This document shows, one piece after another, positions 23,062 through 29,619 of a stretch of 64,000 nucleotides of DNA. The position numbers and the translations under genes were made by a program. Source of the DNA: Pacificibacter maritimus. GTDB taxonomy: Bacteria > Pseudomonadota > Alphaproteobacteria > Rhodobacterales > Rhodobacteraceae. Under the pieces are notes generated by a model that saw only the letters and a list, made by a program, of their open reading frames with translations, searched no databases and had not been told where the DNA came from. Location: NCBI RefSeq assembly GCF_003814915.1, contig NZ_RKQK01000001.1:310001-374000 (forward strand). Direction: 5' to 3'. How positions within the stretch are numbered: the first letter of the stretch is position 1; every line of letters starts with the position of its first letter.

Positions 23062-24840
23062 ATGAGCCAAGATCAAAACCACCCACAAAGCACAAAAGCA
23101 CAGGTCACACAGGCTGCGCAGATTGGTTTGCCCCAAAGCGCGCTGAGGCGGCGTTTGATTGAGGCGCTGATCTTGGTGTTTTGTGTGGGGGTCATAGGAC
23201 TTGGTACCTATGCTTTGGCCTTTCGTGCTGAATTAGACCAAGCTGCTGAACGGGCAGGGGCCGATTTGGCGCTGTCTTCTGACCGCTTACGCGCTGGGCT
23301 GGAACGCTACCGTGAACTTTCGGTTATTCTTGCAGACCATCCGATTATTATGGATCTGGTCACAGCCCGTGCCGCGCCCCCAGCCGGCCTGCAAGCCGCT
23401 ACATCGCAATTGTTGCAAGCTATGGCGGATCAAACTGGGTCGCATTCTATGATGGTTGTTACGCGCTCAGGCCAAGTGCTTGCGGCGACGGATCGTTTTG
23501 CAGCCCCCAAAGGGGTCACTCCCGCCATTCAAAGAGCAATGAACGGTGCGCTTGGCTCTGCGCATTTTGTCGATGATCAAGGTCAGCGCCGCTTTGTCTA
23601 TGCGGCCCCTGTGTTTCTGAAAGGCGCAGGCGCCCAAGGTGCGATTTTGGTGCATGTGGATTTGGAAACCATTGAGTGGGGCTGGCCTGTTGATCCTTTC
23701 GCGGTCTATTTCACGGATGCTTCGGATGTGATCTTTGTCTCAAACCGTACGGAATTGATCTTAGCTGGAGGGGGCGATAAAGCTTTCCCCGCCCAATCCA
23801 AACAGGTCATCGCGGGCCATGATGTCTGGACGATGACCGCAGGACCTTACATTCCTCCGCGTGTGTTGCATATCGAGCGGCCTTTGCCGATTGTTGATAT
23901 GACTGCGGAATTGTTATTCGATCTGCGCCCAGTTATGAATTTGGCTGCGCTGCAAGCGGGTATTGTGGCGGCGATTGCTTTGGCCTTTGGTGCCTTTGTG
24001 GTGCTGGCCACCGAACGCAGACGCACATTGTTTGACGCCAACACGCGATTAGAGGCGCGTGTGGCTGAACGCACCCAAGATTTAGAACAACTCAACCGCG
24101 ATCTTAAACGTGCCCAAGCAGATCTGGTGCAAGCAGGCAAACTGTCGGCGCTGGGCGAAATGTCTGCGGGGATATCGCATGAATTGAACCAGCCTTTGAT
24201 GGCGATCAGATCCTATTCCGAAAATGCGCAATTGTTCTTAGAGCGGCAAAATCCTGACAAAGCGGCGAAAAATTTGGATCATATCGCCGATCTTGCGCGG
24301 CGCATGGGGCGGATCATCAAAAATCTACGCGCTTTCGCCCGACAAGAAAACGAAGCCATTTCCGATGTCGATCTGAGTGCCGTGGTCGATGCGGCTTTGG
24401 ATATGACCATGGGAAAAATTTCTGGCGCGGGCGTGACCCTGCATTGGCAGCCCGAACCCAATATGATGGTGCGCGGTGGCGAAGTGCGCTTGCAGCAAGT
24501 GGTCATCAACCTGATTTCAAATGCCGTGGATGCAATGGCGCAAAGTCCTGAAAAACATATATTTATCGCGCTGGGCGCGTCACCTGTTTCGGGGCCTGAT
24601 ACCCCTGATATGCTGCGCTTGTCTTTGCGTGATACAGGCTCTGGTATCGCCGATCCTGATAAGATGTTTGAACCTTTCTACACCACCAAAGACGTGGGCA
24701 CAGCCCAAGGCATGGGGCTGGGGCTCTCGATCTCTTACGGGCTGATCCAAAGCTTTAGCGGCAGTATTCGCGGTCGCAACATCAGCCAAGGCGGGGCTGA
24801 ATTTATCATTGACCTGCCGCGCGCTAAAACTCACACCTAA
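23062..24840 (+). CDS. dctB: C4-dicarboxylate sensor histidine kinase DctB
   Basis: 592 residues. Two membrane helices (about 32-52 and 293-316) enclose a periplasmic sensor of about 240 residues with the double-PAS-like arrangement of DctB. A coiled segment (325-360) leads to the phosphoacceptor box AGISHELNQPLMAIRSYSENA (His373) and the ATP-binding motifs NLISNAVDAM, DTGSGI and GMGLGLSISYGL. It should phosphorylate DctD encoded 36 bp downstream, in response to succinate, malate or fumarate. dctPQM follows the pair. Confidence 0.93.
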   Translation: MSQDQNHPQSTKAQVTQAAQIGLPQSALRRRLIEALILVFCVGVIGLGTYALAFRAELDQAAERAGADLALSSDRLRAGLERYRELSVILADHPIIMDLVTARAAPPAGLQAATSQLLQAMADQTGSHSMMVVTRSGQVLAATDRFAAPKGVTPAIQRAMNGALGSAHFVDDQGQRRFVYAAPVFLKGAGAQGAILVHVDLETIEWGWPVDPFAVYFTDASDVIFVSNRTELILAGGGDKAFPAQSKQVIAGHDVWTMTAGPYIPPRVLHIERPLPIVDMTAELLFDLRPVMNLAALQAGIVAAIALAFGAFVVLATERRRTLFDANTRLEARVAERTQDLEQLNRDLKRAQADLVQAGKLSALGEMSAGISHELNQPLMAIRSYSENAQLFLERQNPDKAAKNLDHIADLARRMGRIIKNLRAFARQENEAISDVDLSAVVDAALDMTMGKISGAGVTLHWQPEPNMMVRGGEVRLQQVVINLISNAVDAMAQSPEKHIFIALGASPVSGPDTPDMLRLSLRDTGSGIADPDKMFEPFYTTKDVGTAQGMGLGLSISYGLIQSFSGSIRGRNISQGGAEFIIDLPRAKTHT

Positions 24841-24876: not shown

Positions 24877-26118
24877 ATGAAACGAACCACCGCTGTTGAT
24901 CGTGTGCTTTTGGTCGATGATGATGCCGCTGTGCGTGATGCTTTGGGGCAAACCCTTGAATTGGCCGATCTCACGCCGACCTTGGCTGGCACCTATATCG
25001 AAGCCAAAGATCACATATCGCGTGATTTCGCTGGGATCGTCATCACCGATATTCGTATGCCGGGCAAAGATGGGTTTGCCTTGCTGGATTATGCCCAGTC
25101 CGTCGACCCCGAATTGCCTGTGATTTTACTGACGGGCGAGGGGGATATCCCAATGGCTGTAAAAGGGATTTCTGGCGGGGCTTTTGATTTCATCGAAAAA
25201 CCTTGTTCCGCCAAAGAACTCTTGGCTGTGGTTGAAAAAGCCCTACGCGCGCGGGTTTTGGTGCTGGAAAACCGTCGTTTGAAACGCCAAGTCGAACAGG
25301 GCGATGCCGCCGCGCGCCTGTTGCGCGGCACATCTGATCTTTCTAAACGCCTGCGCGAAGATGTGCGGGTTGTGGCGCGCTCTGCGGCTGATGTTTTGGT
25401 CACGGGCGAACCTGGTGTTGGCACAGCCAAAATGGCCGAAGTCCTGCATCTGTTGTCTGCTGGATCATTGGCACCGTTTTTGAAACTTTCTAGCGCAGAT
25501 ATGACGCCCGAAGCCTTGGTCAAAGCCTTTAAGGATGCACAAGGCGGATCTGTCTTTTTAGATGAAGTGGCCGCTTTGCCGCTCAATGTGCAGTTTGCCA
25601 TGTTGGATGTGTTGGAAACCCATGATCGCCCGCGTTTGATTGCGGGCTCCTATGCGGATCTAGCAAGCTTGGCCAAATCGGGCGCATTCTCTGCGGATTT
25701 GTTTTATCGGCTTGAGGCAGCAGTGATCCGCATTCCGCCGTTGCGTGCGCGCCCCGAAGACATCCCCGTTTTGTTTCGCCACTATGTCGATATTGCCTGC
25801 GAACAAACCAACTTGCCGCTGCCTGACATTACCCCCGATATTATCGCCACTTTGATGGCGCAAGATTGGCCTGGCAATGCGCGCAGTTTGATGAATGCGG
25901 CCATGCGATTTGTCATGGGACTCTCAAATGGAGGCACACCTGAGGGAGAGTTGGGGCTGAGTGAACAGATGGCGCAGGTCGAACGCTCACTGTTGATCTC
26001 TGCCTTACAGCGTCACAAGGGCAATGCGACAGAGGCCGCACGCGGTCTAAAGCTGCCGCGCAAAACATTCTACGACAAGTTGGCGCGTCATATGATCAAA
26101 GCGGAATTGTACCGTTAA
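24877..26118 (+). CDS. dctD: DctD-family response regulator lacking sigma54-activation motifs
   Basis: 413 residues: receiver domain 1-125 with phosphoacceptor Asp58 (ITDIRMPGKDG) and Lys108; a degenerate AAA+ domain about 150-345; a Fis-type HTH at the C terminus (GNATEAARGLKLPRKTFYDK). The Walker A position reads GEPGVGTAK instead of GxxGxGK, so the lysine is displaced. The GAFTGA loop that contacts sigma54 is missing: SSADMTPEALVKAFKDAQGG runs straight into Walker B (SVFLDEV). The arginine-finger region DLFYRL is kept. It therefore should bind DNA and respond to DctB but not drive sigma54 open-complex formation. Its likely sites are the palindromes just downstream of the gene. Confidence 0.93.
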   Translation: MKRTTAVDRVLLVDDDAAVRDALGQTLELADLTPTLAGTYIEAKDHISRDFAGIVITDIRMPGKDGFALLDYAQSVDPELPVILLTGEGDIPMAVKGISGGAFDFIEKPCSAKELLAVVEKALRARVLVLENRRLKRQVEQGDAAARLLRGTSDLSKRLREDVRVVARSAADVLVTGEPGVGTAKMAEVLHLLSAGSLAPFLKLSSADMTPEALVKAFKDAQGGSVFLDEVAALPLNVQFAMLDVLETHDRPRLIAGSYADLASLAKSGAFSADLFYRLEAAVIRIPPLRARPEDIPVLFRHYVDIACEQTNLPLPDITPDIIATLMAQDWPGNARSLMNAAMRFVMGLSNGGTPEGELGLSEQMAQVERSLLISALQRHKGNATEAARGLKLPRKTFYDKLARHMIKAELYR

Positions 26119-26150: not shown

Positions 26151-26168
26151 TGTGCGAAAAACCGCACA
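26151..26168. promoter_or_regulatory. Operator 1 upstream of dctP (DctD-type site)
   Basis: Perfect inverted repeat TGTGCG-N6-CGCACA. The same half-sites recur 33 bp further on. The pattern fits DctD upstream activating sites as I recall them from Rhizobium. Confidence 0.8.
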
Positions 26169-26183: not shown

Positions 26184-26201
26184 TGTGCGATGATCCGCAC
26201 A
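26184..26201. promoter_or_regulatory. Operator 2 upstream of dctP (DctD-type site)
   Basis: Second perfect TGTGCG-N6-CGCACA palindrome with a different 6 bp centre. Start-to-start distance to operator 1 is 33 bp, about three helical turns, so two dimers would sit on the same face of the DNA. Confidence 0.8.
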
Positions 26202-26250
26202 TTTGTTTTTGTCTGTCTGAGTTAATATGTAAAGATGCCTGTGCATCATG

Positions 26251-26280
26251 TTGAAATTGTTGTGTTTATAAAAATATAAC
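26251..26280 (+). promoter_or_regulatory. Candidate sigma70-type promoter of dctPQM
   Basis: TTGAAA (26251-26256), 18 bp, TATAAC (26275-26280), about 50 bp downstream of operator 2. No GG-N10-GC element of a sigma54 promoter was found between the operators and dctP; a near match at 26134-26145 has the wrong spacing and lies upstream of the operators. Confidence 0.5.
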
Positions 26281-26404
26281 GCGGGTTAAAATCTTCCCCT
26301 TGCTGCCCCGTTCACAAGCTTGTCATCTTAGCCACGAGCCAAATGTCGCTTATCGAAAGCGCAAAGAGGCCAAAGATTTTGACATCTTGTCTGGGAGGAC
26401 ACCT

Positions 26405-27406
26405 ATGAAATTTCTCGCAACTGCAGCCACTGCACTCGCTCTTGCTGTCACTGGCACCTCTGCCATGGCGGCCTGTGATGACGGCGAAATGGTTATTAAA
26501 TTTAGCCACGTCACCAACACTGACAAACACCCCAAAGGCATCGCGGCCTCTTTGTTCATGGAGCGTGTGAACGCTGAAATGGACGGTAAAGTCTGTGTCG
26601 AAGTTTACCCAAACTCCACGCTCTACAACGATGACCAAGTTTTGGAAGCCATGTTGCAAGGCGATGTTCAAATGGCGGCACCAAGCCTGTCAAAATTTGA
26701 AACATTCACCAAAATCTACCGCATCTTCGATTTGCCTTTCATGTTCAAAAACATGGATGCCGTGGAAGAATTCCAACAGTCCGAAGTGGGCCAAGATATG
26801 AAAGAAGCCATGGTGCGCCGTGGTCTTTTGGGTCTTGGGTTCTGGCACAATGGTCTAAAACAATTCTCAGCCAACAAACCTCTTGTCGCGCCAACAGATG
26901 CGGCGGGTCTGAAATTCCGCGTTCAACCATCTGACGTTTTGGTCGCGCAGATGGAAGCACTTGATGCCTCGCCTCAGCCGATGTCATTCTCGGAAGTTTA
27001 CGGCGCGTTGCAAACTGGCGTTGTGGACGGTCAAGAAAACACTTGGTCCAATATTTACGGCCAGAAATTCTTTGAAGTTCAAGACGGTATCACAGAAACA
27101 AACCACGGTCTTTTGGACTACATGGTTGTGACATCTGTTGACTGGTGGGAAGGTCTCGACGCGGACATCCGCGAGCAACTGTCCACAATCATGTCAGAGG
27201 TCACAACAGAACGTAACGCGGCCATCGCTGAGGTTGACATGGAGAACCGTCAGGCTGTTTTGGATGCAGGCGGCGTGATCCGTGAACTGGATGCAGAGCA
27301 ACGCCAAGCTTGGGTTGATGTGATGAAACCTGTTTGGGCGCAGTTCGAAGGTGACGTGGGCGCAGATAACATCGCCGCGGCACAAGAGATCAACGCAAAG
27401 CACTAA
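26405..27406 (+). CDS. dctP: TRAP transporter C4-dicarboxylate binding protein DctP
   Basis: 333 residues from ATG 26405, preceded by GGGAGG. A clear signal peptide MKFLATAATALALAVTGTSAMA directs it to the periplasm. The mature protein starts with CDDGEMVIKFSHVTNTDKHPKG, followed by FRVQPSDV and GALQTGVVDGQENTWSNIY, the signatures of the DctP family, which captures succinate, malate or fumarate and passes it to DctQM. Upstream tandem operators and the adjacent dctBD indicate induction by C4-dicarboxylates. A hairpin after the gene probably lets it be made in excess over dctQM. Confidence 0.96.
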   Translation: MKFLATAATALALAVTGTSAMAACDDGEMVIKFSHVTNTDKHPKGIAASLFMERVNAEMDGKVCVEVYPNSTLYNDDQVLEAMLQGDVQMAAPSLSKFETFTKIYRIFDLPFMFKNMDAVEEFQQSEVGQDMKEAMVRRGLLGLGFWHNGLKQFSANKPLVAPTDAAGLKFRVQPSDVLVAQMEALDASPQPMSFSEVYGALQTGVVDGQENTWSNIYGQKFFEVQDGITETNHGLLDYMVVTSVDWWEGLDADIREQLSTIMSEVTTERNAAIAEVDMENRQAVLDAGGVIRELDAEQRQAWVDVMKPVWAQFEGDVGADNIAAAQEINAKH

Positions 27407-27463: not shown

Positions 27464-27535
27464 GACCCTGTGATCCAGTGTTTGCCGCGCAGCTTTCGGG
27501 TCACCCCAAACCTCAAAATAACAAGGGATAAAGAC

Positions 27536-28225
27536 ATGTCACTTCCTGATGACAGTCAAGGCACGGCCTTGGGGCGCTTTTTTGACAGCGTCGAAGAAAA
27601 CCTGATCGCAGCGATACTTGGGGTGATGACCCTGATCACATTTGCCAATGTGGTGCTGCGCTACGTGTTCAATGAATCGCTGATTTGGGGCCTTGAAGTG
27701 GTGCTGATCTTGTTTGCTTGGCTGGTGATGTTGGGCATTTCATACGGGTTCAAAAAGACCACACATTTGGGTGTGGACGCCGTGACAAACCTGTTGCCGT
27801 CGCGCGGTCAACGTGTGGCAGCGCTTTTGTCGGCTGCGGCGTGTTTCGCCTATGCCGCTTTGCTTATGAAAGGCGCATGGGATTACTGGGCGCCCTTTGC
27901 TGCACTGCAACCTACCGAAGGCCGCTGGTTTCCGCTCGGTTTTACCGAAAACACCCGTGATCGTGCCTTCTACATGACAGATCAGGTGCCGATGTTGGGG
28001 ATTTTGCGTTGGCTTGAAGACGCGATCAATTATGGCGACAGCTACGATAAATTGCCCCGTGTTGTGCCCTATTTCATTATCCCCTTTGGCTCTGCCTTGA
28101 TCTTGTTGCGCGTTGTGCAGGCATCGATCCGCATCATCAAAGGCGAACAAGCCAGCTTGATTGTCTCGCATGAGGCCGAAGAAGACGTTGAGCGCGTTGC
28201 CGCGCAAAACGCACAAGAGGAGTAA
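27536..28225 (+). CDS. dctQ: TRAP transporter small membrane subunit DctQ
   Basis: 229 residues from ATG 27536. Four membrane helices (about 26-46, 49-68, 90-112, 170-190) with the DctQ signature FANVVLRYVFNESLIWGLEV. There is an extended loop between helices 3 and 4 (about 115-165), which makes it longer than the usual 160-190 residues, and an acidic C-terminal tail. It forms the membrane complex with DctM, whose gene starts 5 bp downstream. Confidence 0.94.
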   Translation: MSLPDDSQGTALGRFFDSVEENLIAAILGVMTLITFANVVLRYVFNESLIWGLEVVLILFAWLVMLGISYGFKKTTHLGVDAVTNLLPSRGQRVAALLSAAACFAYAALLMKGAWDYWAPFAALQPTEGRWFPLGFTENTRDRAFYMTDQVPMLGILRWLEDAINYGDSYDKLPRVVPYFIIPFGSALILLRVVQASIRIIKGEQASLIVSHEAEEDVERVAAQNAQEE

Positions 28226-28230
28226 CCCCC

Positions 28231-29619
28231 GTGGAAGTCATTCTATTATTCGTGATGGTGCTGGGGCTTTTGCTCATTGGTGTGCCTATCGCTGTGTCCT
28301 TGGGCCTGTCGTCCATGATCTTTTTACTCGCCTTTTCAGATACTTCACTGGCTTCAGTGGCACAGTCCTTGTATCAGGCTATGGCGGGTCACTATACGCT
28401 TTTGGCGATCCCGTTTTTCATTCTGGCCTCTAGTTTTATGTCTACTGGCGGTGTGGCGACGCGCATTGTGCGCTTTTCCATCGCCTGTGTGGGTCACATG
28501 CATGGCGGCTTGGCCATCGCGGGTGTTTTTGCCTGCATGATCTTTGCAGCCCTGTCTGGATCTAGCCCTGCGACGGTTGTTGCTATTGGTACAATCGTGA
28601 TCGCTGCGATGAAAAAAGTCGGTTATTCCAAAGACTTCGCCGCTGGCGTGATCTGTAACGCGGGCACATTGGGGATTTTGATCCCGCCTTCCATCGTTAT
28701 GGTTGTTTACGCTTCTGCGACGGATGTTTCTGTTGGGCGTATGTTCTTGGCAGGGGTCATTCCTGGCCTTTTGGCTGGCACGATGTTGATGTTGGCGATT
28801 TACATCATCGCACGCATCAAAAAACTGCCAAAAGGCGAATGGGCAGGCTGGGGCGAGATTTGGAATTCTTTCAAAGATGCGTTTTGGGGCTTGATGCTGA
28901 TCGTCATCATTATGGTTGGTATCTACGGTATTCCAGGCATCACGGGCGCGATCTTTACCCCGACTGAAGCGGCGGCTGTGGCCTCTGTCTACGCCTTCTT
29001 TGTGGCATCCTTTATCTACCGCGATATGGGGCCGCTGAGAAATTCCGACGAGCGTATTTCACTGCTGCGCAAACCGCAGGCCGTTGTGACAGCCTTCTTC
29101 CACAAAGATACGCGCGCCACCTTGTTTGATGCGGGTAAGTTGACCATCATGTTGATGTTCATCATCGCCAACGCATTAATATTAAAGCATGTTTTGACCG
29201 ATGAACAAATCCCACAACAGATCGCCAACGCGATGCTTTCAGCGGGCTTTGGTAAGATCATGTTCCTTGTGATGGTCAATGTGATCTTGCTGATCGGCGG
29301 GCAATTCATGGAGCCCTCAGGCTTGATCGTGATCGTAGCACCGCTGGTATTCCCAATCGCGATTGAACTGGGCGTGGACCCGATCCACCTTGGAATTATC
29401 ATGGTGGTGAATATGGAAATCGGCATGATCACACCGCCTGTTGGCCTGAACCTGTTCGTGACCTCTGGGGTTGCTGGCATGCCTATGATGGCCGTTGTGC
29501 GCGCTGCTGCACCTTTCTTGGCGATCTTGTTTGTCTTCTTGATCTTGATCACCTACGTGCCGATCATTTCGACCTATCTTCCGACCAGTTTGATGGGGCC
29601 TGAGATCATAACCAATTAG
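28231..29619 (+). CDS. dctM: TRAP transporter large membrane subunit DctM
   Basis: 462 residues starting at GTG 28231. About 12 membrane helices; the Na+-coupled transport core shows AALSGSSPATVVAIG, GILIPPSIVMVVYA and GMITPPVGLNLFV. A cytoplasmic insert of about 40 residues (around 265-305, containing RNSDERISLLRKPQ) makes it longer than the typical 425-435. With DctP and DctQ it imports C4-dicarboxylates. A terminator follows. Confidence 0.95.
   Translation: MEVILLFVMVLGLLLIGVPIAVSLGLSSMIFLLAFSDTSLASVAQSLYQAMAGHYTLLAIPFFILASSFMSTGGVATRIVRFSIACVGHMHGGLAIAGVFACMIFAALSGSSPATVVAIGTIVIAAMKKVGYSKDFAAGVICNAGTLGILIPPSIVMVVYASATDVSVGRMFLAGVIPGLLAGTMLMLAIYIIARIKKLPKGEWAGWGEIWNSFKDAFWGLMLIVIIMVGIYGIPGITGAIFTPTEAAAVASVYAFFVASFIYRDMGPLRNSDERISLLRKPQAVVTAFFHKDTRATLFDAGKLTIMLMFIIANALILKHVLTDEQIPQQIANAMLSAGFGKIMFLVMVNVILLIGGQFMEPSGLIVIVAPLVFPIAIELGVDPIHLGIIMVVNMEIGMITPPVGLNLFVTSGVAGMPMMAVVRAAAPFLAILFVFLILITYVPIISTYLPTSLMGPEIITN

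Follow-up and report, generated by a model that had tools for sequence, protein, structure and literature searches.

The classic target of sigma54 and the response regulator DctD is dctA of Sinorhizobium meliloti. Sigma54 needs an ATP-driven activator and sigma70 does not, and how a regulator moves from one to the other is an open question in regulatory evolution. Regulators that lack the GAFTGA motif have been described: TyrR, DhaR, HupR, VpsR and YplP are named in the available part of PMC3162934, and the NtrC proteins of Caulobacter and Rhodobacter capsulatus, together with VpsR, are presented as GAFTGA-less regulators of sigma70 promoters (PMC10274813, in part). The R. capsulatus protein is described as working with the housekeeping sigma factor, RpoD (PMC10274813 and PMC6925177, both in part). 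For dctPQM of Rhodobacter sphaeroides, DctS/DctR is cited, by name a different regulator (PMC9430884, in part). No title or abstract on a GAFTGA-less DctD was found in the literature searched, a body that leaves out most subscription papers.

Here we describe a DctD-like regulator (P0001), a 413-amino-acid protein encoded between a DctB-like kinase gene and dctPQM in the window, the whole 64-kb stretch of DNA that was analysed (Table 1). It matches the Pfam domains Response_reg, Sigma54_activ_2, Sigma54_activat (in two separate stretches), AAA_lid_14 and HTH_8. Its receiver is identical to that of S. meliloti DctD at 60 of 114 residues, and D15, D58 and K108 are all present. An AlphaFold model built with 48 sequences and no ligand retains the REC, AAA+ and HTH folds (mean pLDDT 86), with the placement of the domains unsure because the pTM is 0.54; high among its PDB matches are Brucella NtrX, NtrC1, NtrC4, LuxO and VpsR (7v2b).

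Table 1. Features of the dct locus, in window coordinates
Feature	Position	Strand
dctB-like sensor kinase, 592 aa, HisKA and HATPase_c	23062..24840	+
DctD-like response regulator (P0001) without the Walker A Lys and the L1 (GAFTGA) loop	24877..26118	+
Receiver domain, residues 9-122, phospho-acceptor D58	24901..25242	+
Degenerate Walker A GEPGVGTAK, residues 177-185, K185 invariant	25405..25431	+
Junction of the missing L1/GAFTGA (19-20 residues), residues 217/218	25525..25530	+
Walker B VFLDE, residues 226-230, retained	25552..25566	+
L2 region, shortened, residues 247-253	25615..25635	+
Arginine finger region FSADLFYRL; first finger R to S, second R retained	25687..25713	+
Sensor II WPGNARSL, R336 invariant	25867..25890	+
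Fis-type helix-turn-helix; PRKTFYDKL stretch as in S. meliloti DctD	25963..26094	+
Putative DctD operator 1, TGTGCGAAAAACCGCACA	26151..26168	.
Putative DctD operator 2, TGTGCGATGATCCGCACA, 33 bp from operator 1	26184..26201	.
Weak IHF-like site, 2 mismatches, between operators and promoter	26244..26256	+
Predicted -35, TTGCTG	26300..26305	+
Predicted -10, TCATCT, 17 bp past the -35	26323..26328	+
dctP, TRAP solute-binding protein	26405..27406	+
dctQ, TRAP small permease; true start probably internal	27470..28225	+
dctM, TRAP large permease	28231..29619	+

We compared 81 loci, our own and the best 80 of 446 relatives, whose record titles are nearly all Rhodobacteraceae (Pacificibacter, Celeribacter, Marivivens, Defluviimonas, Actibacterium, Roseovarius, Octadecabacter and others). 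The Walker A Lys is absent throughout, its position being held by T in 64 loci, I in 8, N in 7 and M and V in one each. Walker A and Walker B lie 53 residues apart in all 81 loci, compared with 72 in three full-length DctDs (two with GAFTGA, one with GAFPGA); the L1 region is 19 residues shorter, and the string GA[FY][TS]G occurs in none of the 81. Walker B and sensor I are separated by 25 residues in 79 loci (24 and 29 in the others), compared with 37 in the full-length proteins, a difference of 12 that indicates a shortened L2. The first arginine finger is an Arg in no locus, and the second is R in 41, K in 39 and L in one. The same degenerate features recur in 27 of 27 loci of a set that overlaps the 81 (our own and 26 relatives). 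With L1 absent, L2 shortened and both the P-loop Lys and the first arginine finger gone, the ATPase activity of the protein has presumably been lost.

The sequence-only reading had pointed to the missing Walker A Lys and GAFTGA motif in the stretch up to Walker B, next to an intact receiver Asp58 and Fis helix-turn-helix, and the comparison bears this out: both losses are seen in the open reading frame and in 81 of 81 loci, D58 is as widespread, together with D15 and K108, and the helix-turn-helix is matched by HTH_8. A DctB homologue precedes dctD in all 81 loci, and the order dctB-dctD-dctP-dctQ-dctM is complete in 73. Of the other eight, three lack a dctP within reach, three lack dctQM although dctP is there, and in two the contig ends too early. 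An evenly drawn sample of 341 Rhodobacterales genomes was scored by E-value and not by motifs; 170 of them carry a close orthologue (best E < 1e-100 to P0001), and no genome falls between 6.0e-95 and 3.6e-121. No record above 60% identity was found in a plasmid collection. A search for a GAFTGA codon pattern across 61 genomes gave about as many control matches as real ones and was left out of the counts.

The AAA domain is under purifying selection. Median dN/dS is 0.136 for AAA (18 usable of 20 pairs), 0.087 for REC, 0.062 for the lid and 0.072 for the HTH, with one or two of the 20 pairs unusable in each domain. That the protein is a decaying relic, as the loss of several catalytic motifs might suggest, we consider scarcely credible given medians far below 1 in every domain, wide retention and conserved operators. 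The loss of the Walker A Lys and of GAFTGA is a trait of a large clade, neither a sequencing error nor decay. The earlier interpretation pointed in the right direction and was too narrow in scope; the change is not special to this genome.

The rest of the nucleotide pocket is well preserved. P-loop residues G177 and G180, the Walker B Glu (E230), the sensor II Arg (R336) and K185, a Lys two residues past the lost one, occur in 81 of 81 loci, and the Walker B Asp (D229) in 78. Strict conservation of the Walker B Glu, the sensor II Arg and K185 means that nucleotide binding may persist, and the protein could be a nucleotide-gated sigma70 activator in which K185, Walker B and sensor II form a modified pocket that binds ATP and does not hydrolyse it. 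For R. capsulatus NtrC the reported requirement is ATP binding and not hydrolysis, and for Caulobacter NtrC it is both (PMC10274813, in part). However, the P-loop Lys is found in 0 of 81 loci, and two related branches described below have broken the site differently (one with R and a broken Walker B, the other with the Lys and no Walker B), so that the pocket has not been kept as a unit in the clade as a whole. We regard nucleotide gating as unlikely, although worth keeping in view.

Two sites stand between dctD and dctP, both perfect TGTGCG-N6-CGCACA palindromes, and no other site with fewer than two mismatches occurs in the 64-kb window. The single further perfect site in the genome (C6:36371) lies within an open reading frame read as another TRAP binding protein, and was set aside as chance. 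Across relatives, operators were counted in 78 of the 81 loci (in L071, L085 and L105 no dctP lies within reach). The best single site has no mismatch in 47 gaps, one in 30 and two in one, compared with 0.15 loci with one mismatch and none with zero in 20 shuffles. When pairs were sought over the whole dctD-dctP gap at any spacing from 18 to 70 bp, the best pair had 0-6 mismatches of 24 (6-12 in shuffles) and was spaced by 33 bp in 59 gaps, 32 bp in 11 and 34 bp in 8; both sites have at most four mismatches in 76 of the 78. The pair lies 162-221 bp upstream of dctP. Eighteen of the 78 gaps exceed 400 bp, reaching 2.4 kb (L056-L062, L090, L127, L130 and others), presumably through inserted genes, and there the pair is near dctP, not behind dctD. 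Because the same site precedes dctA of S. meliloti (TGTGCGGAAATCCGCACA, one copy, no mismatch), and the HTH stretch PRKTFYDKL is shared, the paired sites are most likely DctD operators, to which the regulator would bind.

The dctP promoter seems to have changed class. Elements of the -24/-12 type are no more frequent in the 78 derived gaps than in shuffles. The derived gaps carry a TTTTTCTTG element at a median of 92 bp past site 2, and 50 of the 78 have a -35/-10-like TTG-17-TnnnnT element. Stacking these 50 loci gives TTG, 17 bp and a second hexamer with its first T in 64% and its last T in 68%; the other 28, below the score cut, were left out. The columns are not independent, because the motif was searched for in related sequences: those of the -35 are high by selection, and the second hexamer is the independent part, within the limits of related sequences. 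Use of sigma70 at dctP is a prediction, which the promoter comparison supports. Scanning the window for the consensus puts another weak box first, TTTATA-16-TAAAAT at 26265-26292 (9/12; 0.5 expected by shuffles). An IHF-like motif, YAANNNNTTGATW, is present with at most one mismatch in 24 of 78 gaps, compared with 4.4 expected (a search in the second orientation gave 11, with 3.9 expected), and in 17 of those 24 loci it lies 41-43 bp past site 2.

Could DctD instead repress, or relieve repression of, a sigma70 dctP promoter? Caulobacter NtrC, which lacks GAFTGA, both represses and activates (PMC10274813, in part). Here, however, about 98 bp separate the end of operator 2 from the predicted -35, close to the 95-97 bp that precede the -24/-12 elements in two relatives with GAFTGA (L140 and L141, below). 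Such a distance is unsuited to steric repression, and canonical DctD is generally known as an activator. We think a repressor or anti-repressor improbable. Fitness values for SPO2626, SPO2627, SPO2630 and SPOA0237 of Ruegeria pomeroyi, one of which may be this DctD, have an activator-like look in the available part of PMC10041152; we made no use of them.

The genome, which is 99.94% complete, has no match to the RpoN domains PF04552 and PF04963; the same search matched 4 of 14 well-known genomes, as expected. dctP cannot therefore be sigma54-dependent there, which upholds the earlier proposal that the protein is no normal sigma54 activator, and the sigma54-dependent dctP transcription named as its refutation does not hold. 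PF00158 matches occur at ten places, two of them in Clp ATPase-like proteins and eight in six NtrC-family regulators: P0001, those read as NtrC and NtrX, a second DctD-like protein, one with GAFPSA and one more. None of the six contains GAFTGA, and none of the NtrC-family regulators found in this genome can act as a sigma54 activator. An intact second DctD, the other proposed refutation, is likewise absent: in the second DctD-like protein, L004 (G000:C1:464484-465791), Walker A is retained and GAFTGA is missing. This protein belongs to a second DctB/DctD-like pair (G000:C1:462569-465807; L191, 2570-5807) with no TRAP gene seen adjoining and with matches of similar identity in many relatives. 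Searching for sigma54 consensus elements in the 64-kb window gave matches below chance (379, compared with 418.5 expected). Genome-wide, such a scan returned too many matches to be usable: 2612 -24/-12-like sequences with at most two mismatches (5 perfect), compared with 1361 for the reversed pattern and despite the lack of RpoN, an excess that we cannot explain beyond base composition.

Among the 170 genomes with a close orthologue, rpoN is present in 36 and not in 134. It was counted at E < 1e-20, which gives 85 of the 341 sampled Rhodobacterales genomes; ten weaker matches of 95 were set aside, and in eight of these ten cases the genome also carries a close orthologue. Orthologue and rpoN show no significant association (odds ratio 0.67, p 0.13), and loss of rpoN as the driver of the change in DctD was dropped for this reason. 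Kept with or without rpoN, the orthologue represents a state that is stable irrespective of sigma54. The 36 genomes with rpoN would allow a mixed ring, in which the protein acts on sigma54 together with an intact enhancer-binding protein. The present genome, however, has no RpoN match and no GAFTGA among its NtrC-family regulators, and the derived dctP gaps have no -24/-12 elements above chance; we attach almost no weight to a mixed ring, barring a divergent RpoN that escaped the search.

What the locus may have looked like before the change can be read from three relatives, L038 (G023), L140 (G169) and L141 (G283). Each has the same dctBDPQM operon, a DctD with the Walker A Lys and GAFTGA, a DctP 66-69% identical to ours and rpoN in its genome. 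All three have paired operators at 32 bp. L140 and L141 have a -24/-12 element, TGGCACGCATCTTGAA (one mismatch), 95-97 bp past site 2, and L038 has TGGCATGGATTCTGCA (two mismatches) at 51 bp. In L140 and L141 a CTTGC box precedes the CTTGAA of the sigma54 element by 19 bp, and the later -35 might have arisen from it. A fourth locus with the same operon, L039 (GAFPGA DctD), has neither the operators (nine mismatches) nor a -24/-12 element (four mismatches). By this comparison, the operon appears to survive in living Rhodobacteraceae both as it was before the change and as it became.

We built a maximum-likelihood tree of 58 proteins, including 24 of the 81 derived, 12 of 28 GAFxGA and 8 of 10 Walker-B-less sequences. 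The loop-deleted proteins form one clade (100/100) with the derived DctD within it (100/99), the bootstrap being not fully settled; the order of the three GAFTGA loci at the base is unsettled. Sister to the derived DctD (97/82), on a long branch, is L171, which adjoins dctPQM. There R replaces the Walker A Lys and Walker B is broken; the paired operators and a TTTTTTTCTTGAG box are present, and the genome has rpoN. A second loop-deleted branch (L170 and L172-L180, ten loci) has lost L1 and L2, keeps the Walker A Lys and has lost Walker B; its motif losses are the mirror image of those in P0001. By parsimony, L171 and the Walker-B-less branch suggest that the loops were lost once and that the ATP site failed later and differently, as expected once remodelling was no longer needed. 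Outside this clade of deletions are Rhodobacterales DctD paralogues with GAFPGA or a similar motif (Thr replaced) and intact Walker A (L142-L169, L039 and L194). In L194, which is borne on a plasmid, the paired operators recur at 32 bp in front of a TAXI-type TRAP gene, with no good match to a -24/-12 element (four mismatches at best).

We give roughly two chances in three to the reading that DctD moved from sigma54 to sigma70 control of dctPQM in one ancestral change that spared the enhancer and was followed by inactivation of the ATPase. The more specific claim, an ATP-independent, enhancer-type sigma70 activator derived from a sigma54 activator, with its enhancer in place, promoter class switched and ATP motor off, seems to us evenly balanced; activation, use of sigma70 and independence of ATP are what we infer for the protein. 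Conserved residues and gene order suggest that DctB would phosphorylate D58. The phosphorylated regulator would bind the two tandem sites, which were found by comparison, and from about 140 and 175 bp upstream of the predicted start it would activate the housekeeping polymerase at the -35/-10, probably assisted by DNA bending. DctD itself would do no ATP-driven remodelling of the polymerase, as the motif losses seen in the sequence imply. Tree and the three surviving loci point to a single change, from an ancestor whose DctD had GAFTGA and whose operon had these paired sites together with a -24/-12 promoter; the loops would have gone first and the ATP site afterwards, in different ways per branch.

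Several observations stand against this move from sigma54 to sigma70. At about -142 and -175, the operators lie far out for an activator of sigma70; the -35/-10 cut excludes 28 of 78 loci, and the window scan prefers another box. The ancestral state is seen in three loci only, at a base whose order is unsettled, S. meliloti has one site and not a pair, and L039 is without sites or -24/-12. The dN/dS of the AAA domain is 1.5- to 2-fold that elsewhere in the protein, and -24/-12-like matches are in excess in the genome. With both states of one operon and the same operators in related bacteria, loop loss, promoter switch and ATPase loss become separable, and to call this DctD a 'sigma-54 dependent transcriptional regulator', wherever that is done, would be mistaken.

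Compared with canonical sigma54-dependent DctD (group I), the protein has the receiver Asp, the Walker B DE, the sensor II Arg and a DctD operator upstream of a transporter, but lacks the Walker A Lys, GAFTGA, the first arginine finger, a -24/-12 element at its target and RpoN in its genome. S. meliloti DctD likewise has a receiver with its phospho-acceptor, the PRKTFYDKL Fis HTH, an adjoining sensor kinase and the operator. It differs in its Walker A Lys, GAFTGA and full L2, the loops and Lys being missing here, in its perfect TGGCAC-N5-TTGCT promoter with one operator found, and in its target, dctA instead of dctPQM. The GAFPGA-type and Walker-B-less Rhodobacterales paralogues are also DctD-family proteins with a DctB homologue upstream, but the former keep Walker A and the loop length and the latter keep the Walker A Lys; within the approximately 0.9-1.5 kb read downstream, only L039 has a dctP of our type. 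We know of no DctB-type partner of VpsR.

VpsR of Vibrio cholerae lacks GAFTGA, acts at sigma70 promoters reportedly without need of ATP (PMC10274813, in part) and is a structural match (7v2b), but binds c-di-GMP, according to the title of 7v2b. HupR, TyrR and DhaR are likewise sigma54-activator paralogues that have lost sigma54 contact (PMC3162934, in part), with other signals and operons. R. capsulatus and other Rhodobacterales NtrC proteins have deleted the GAFTGA loop as here, but the former is reported to need ATP binding (PMC10274813, in part), and the protein read as NtrC in the present genome keeps the Walker A Lys (GESGTGK), which P0001 does not. The sequence-only reading had suggested that this DctD would count as a 'second, independent rewiring' after Rhodobacter NtrC; that count is superseded by TyrR, DhaR, HupR, VpsR and YplP (PMC3162934, in part) and by Caulobacter NtrC (PMC10274813, in part), all already published. 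The protein would work as R. capsulatus NtrC or VpsR does, having descended from DctD, and on our best reading it adds a variant to the known GAFTGA-less regulators R. capsulatus NtrC, HupR, VpsR and TyrR.
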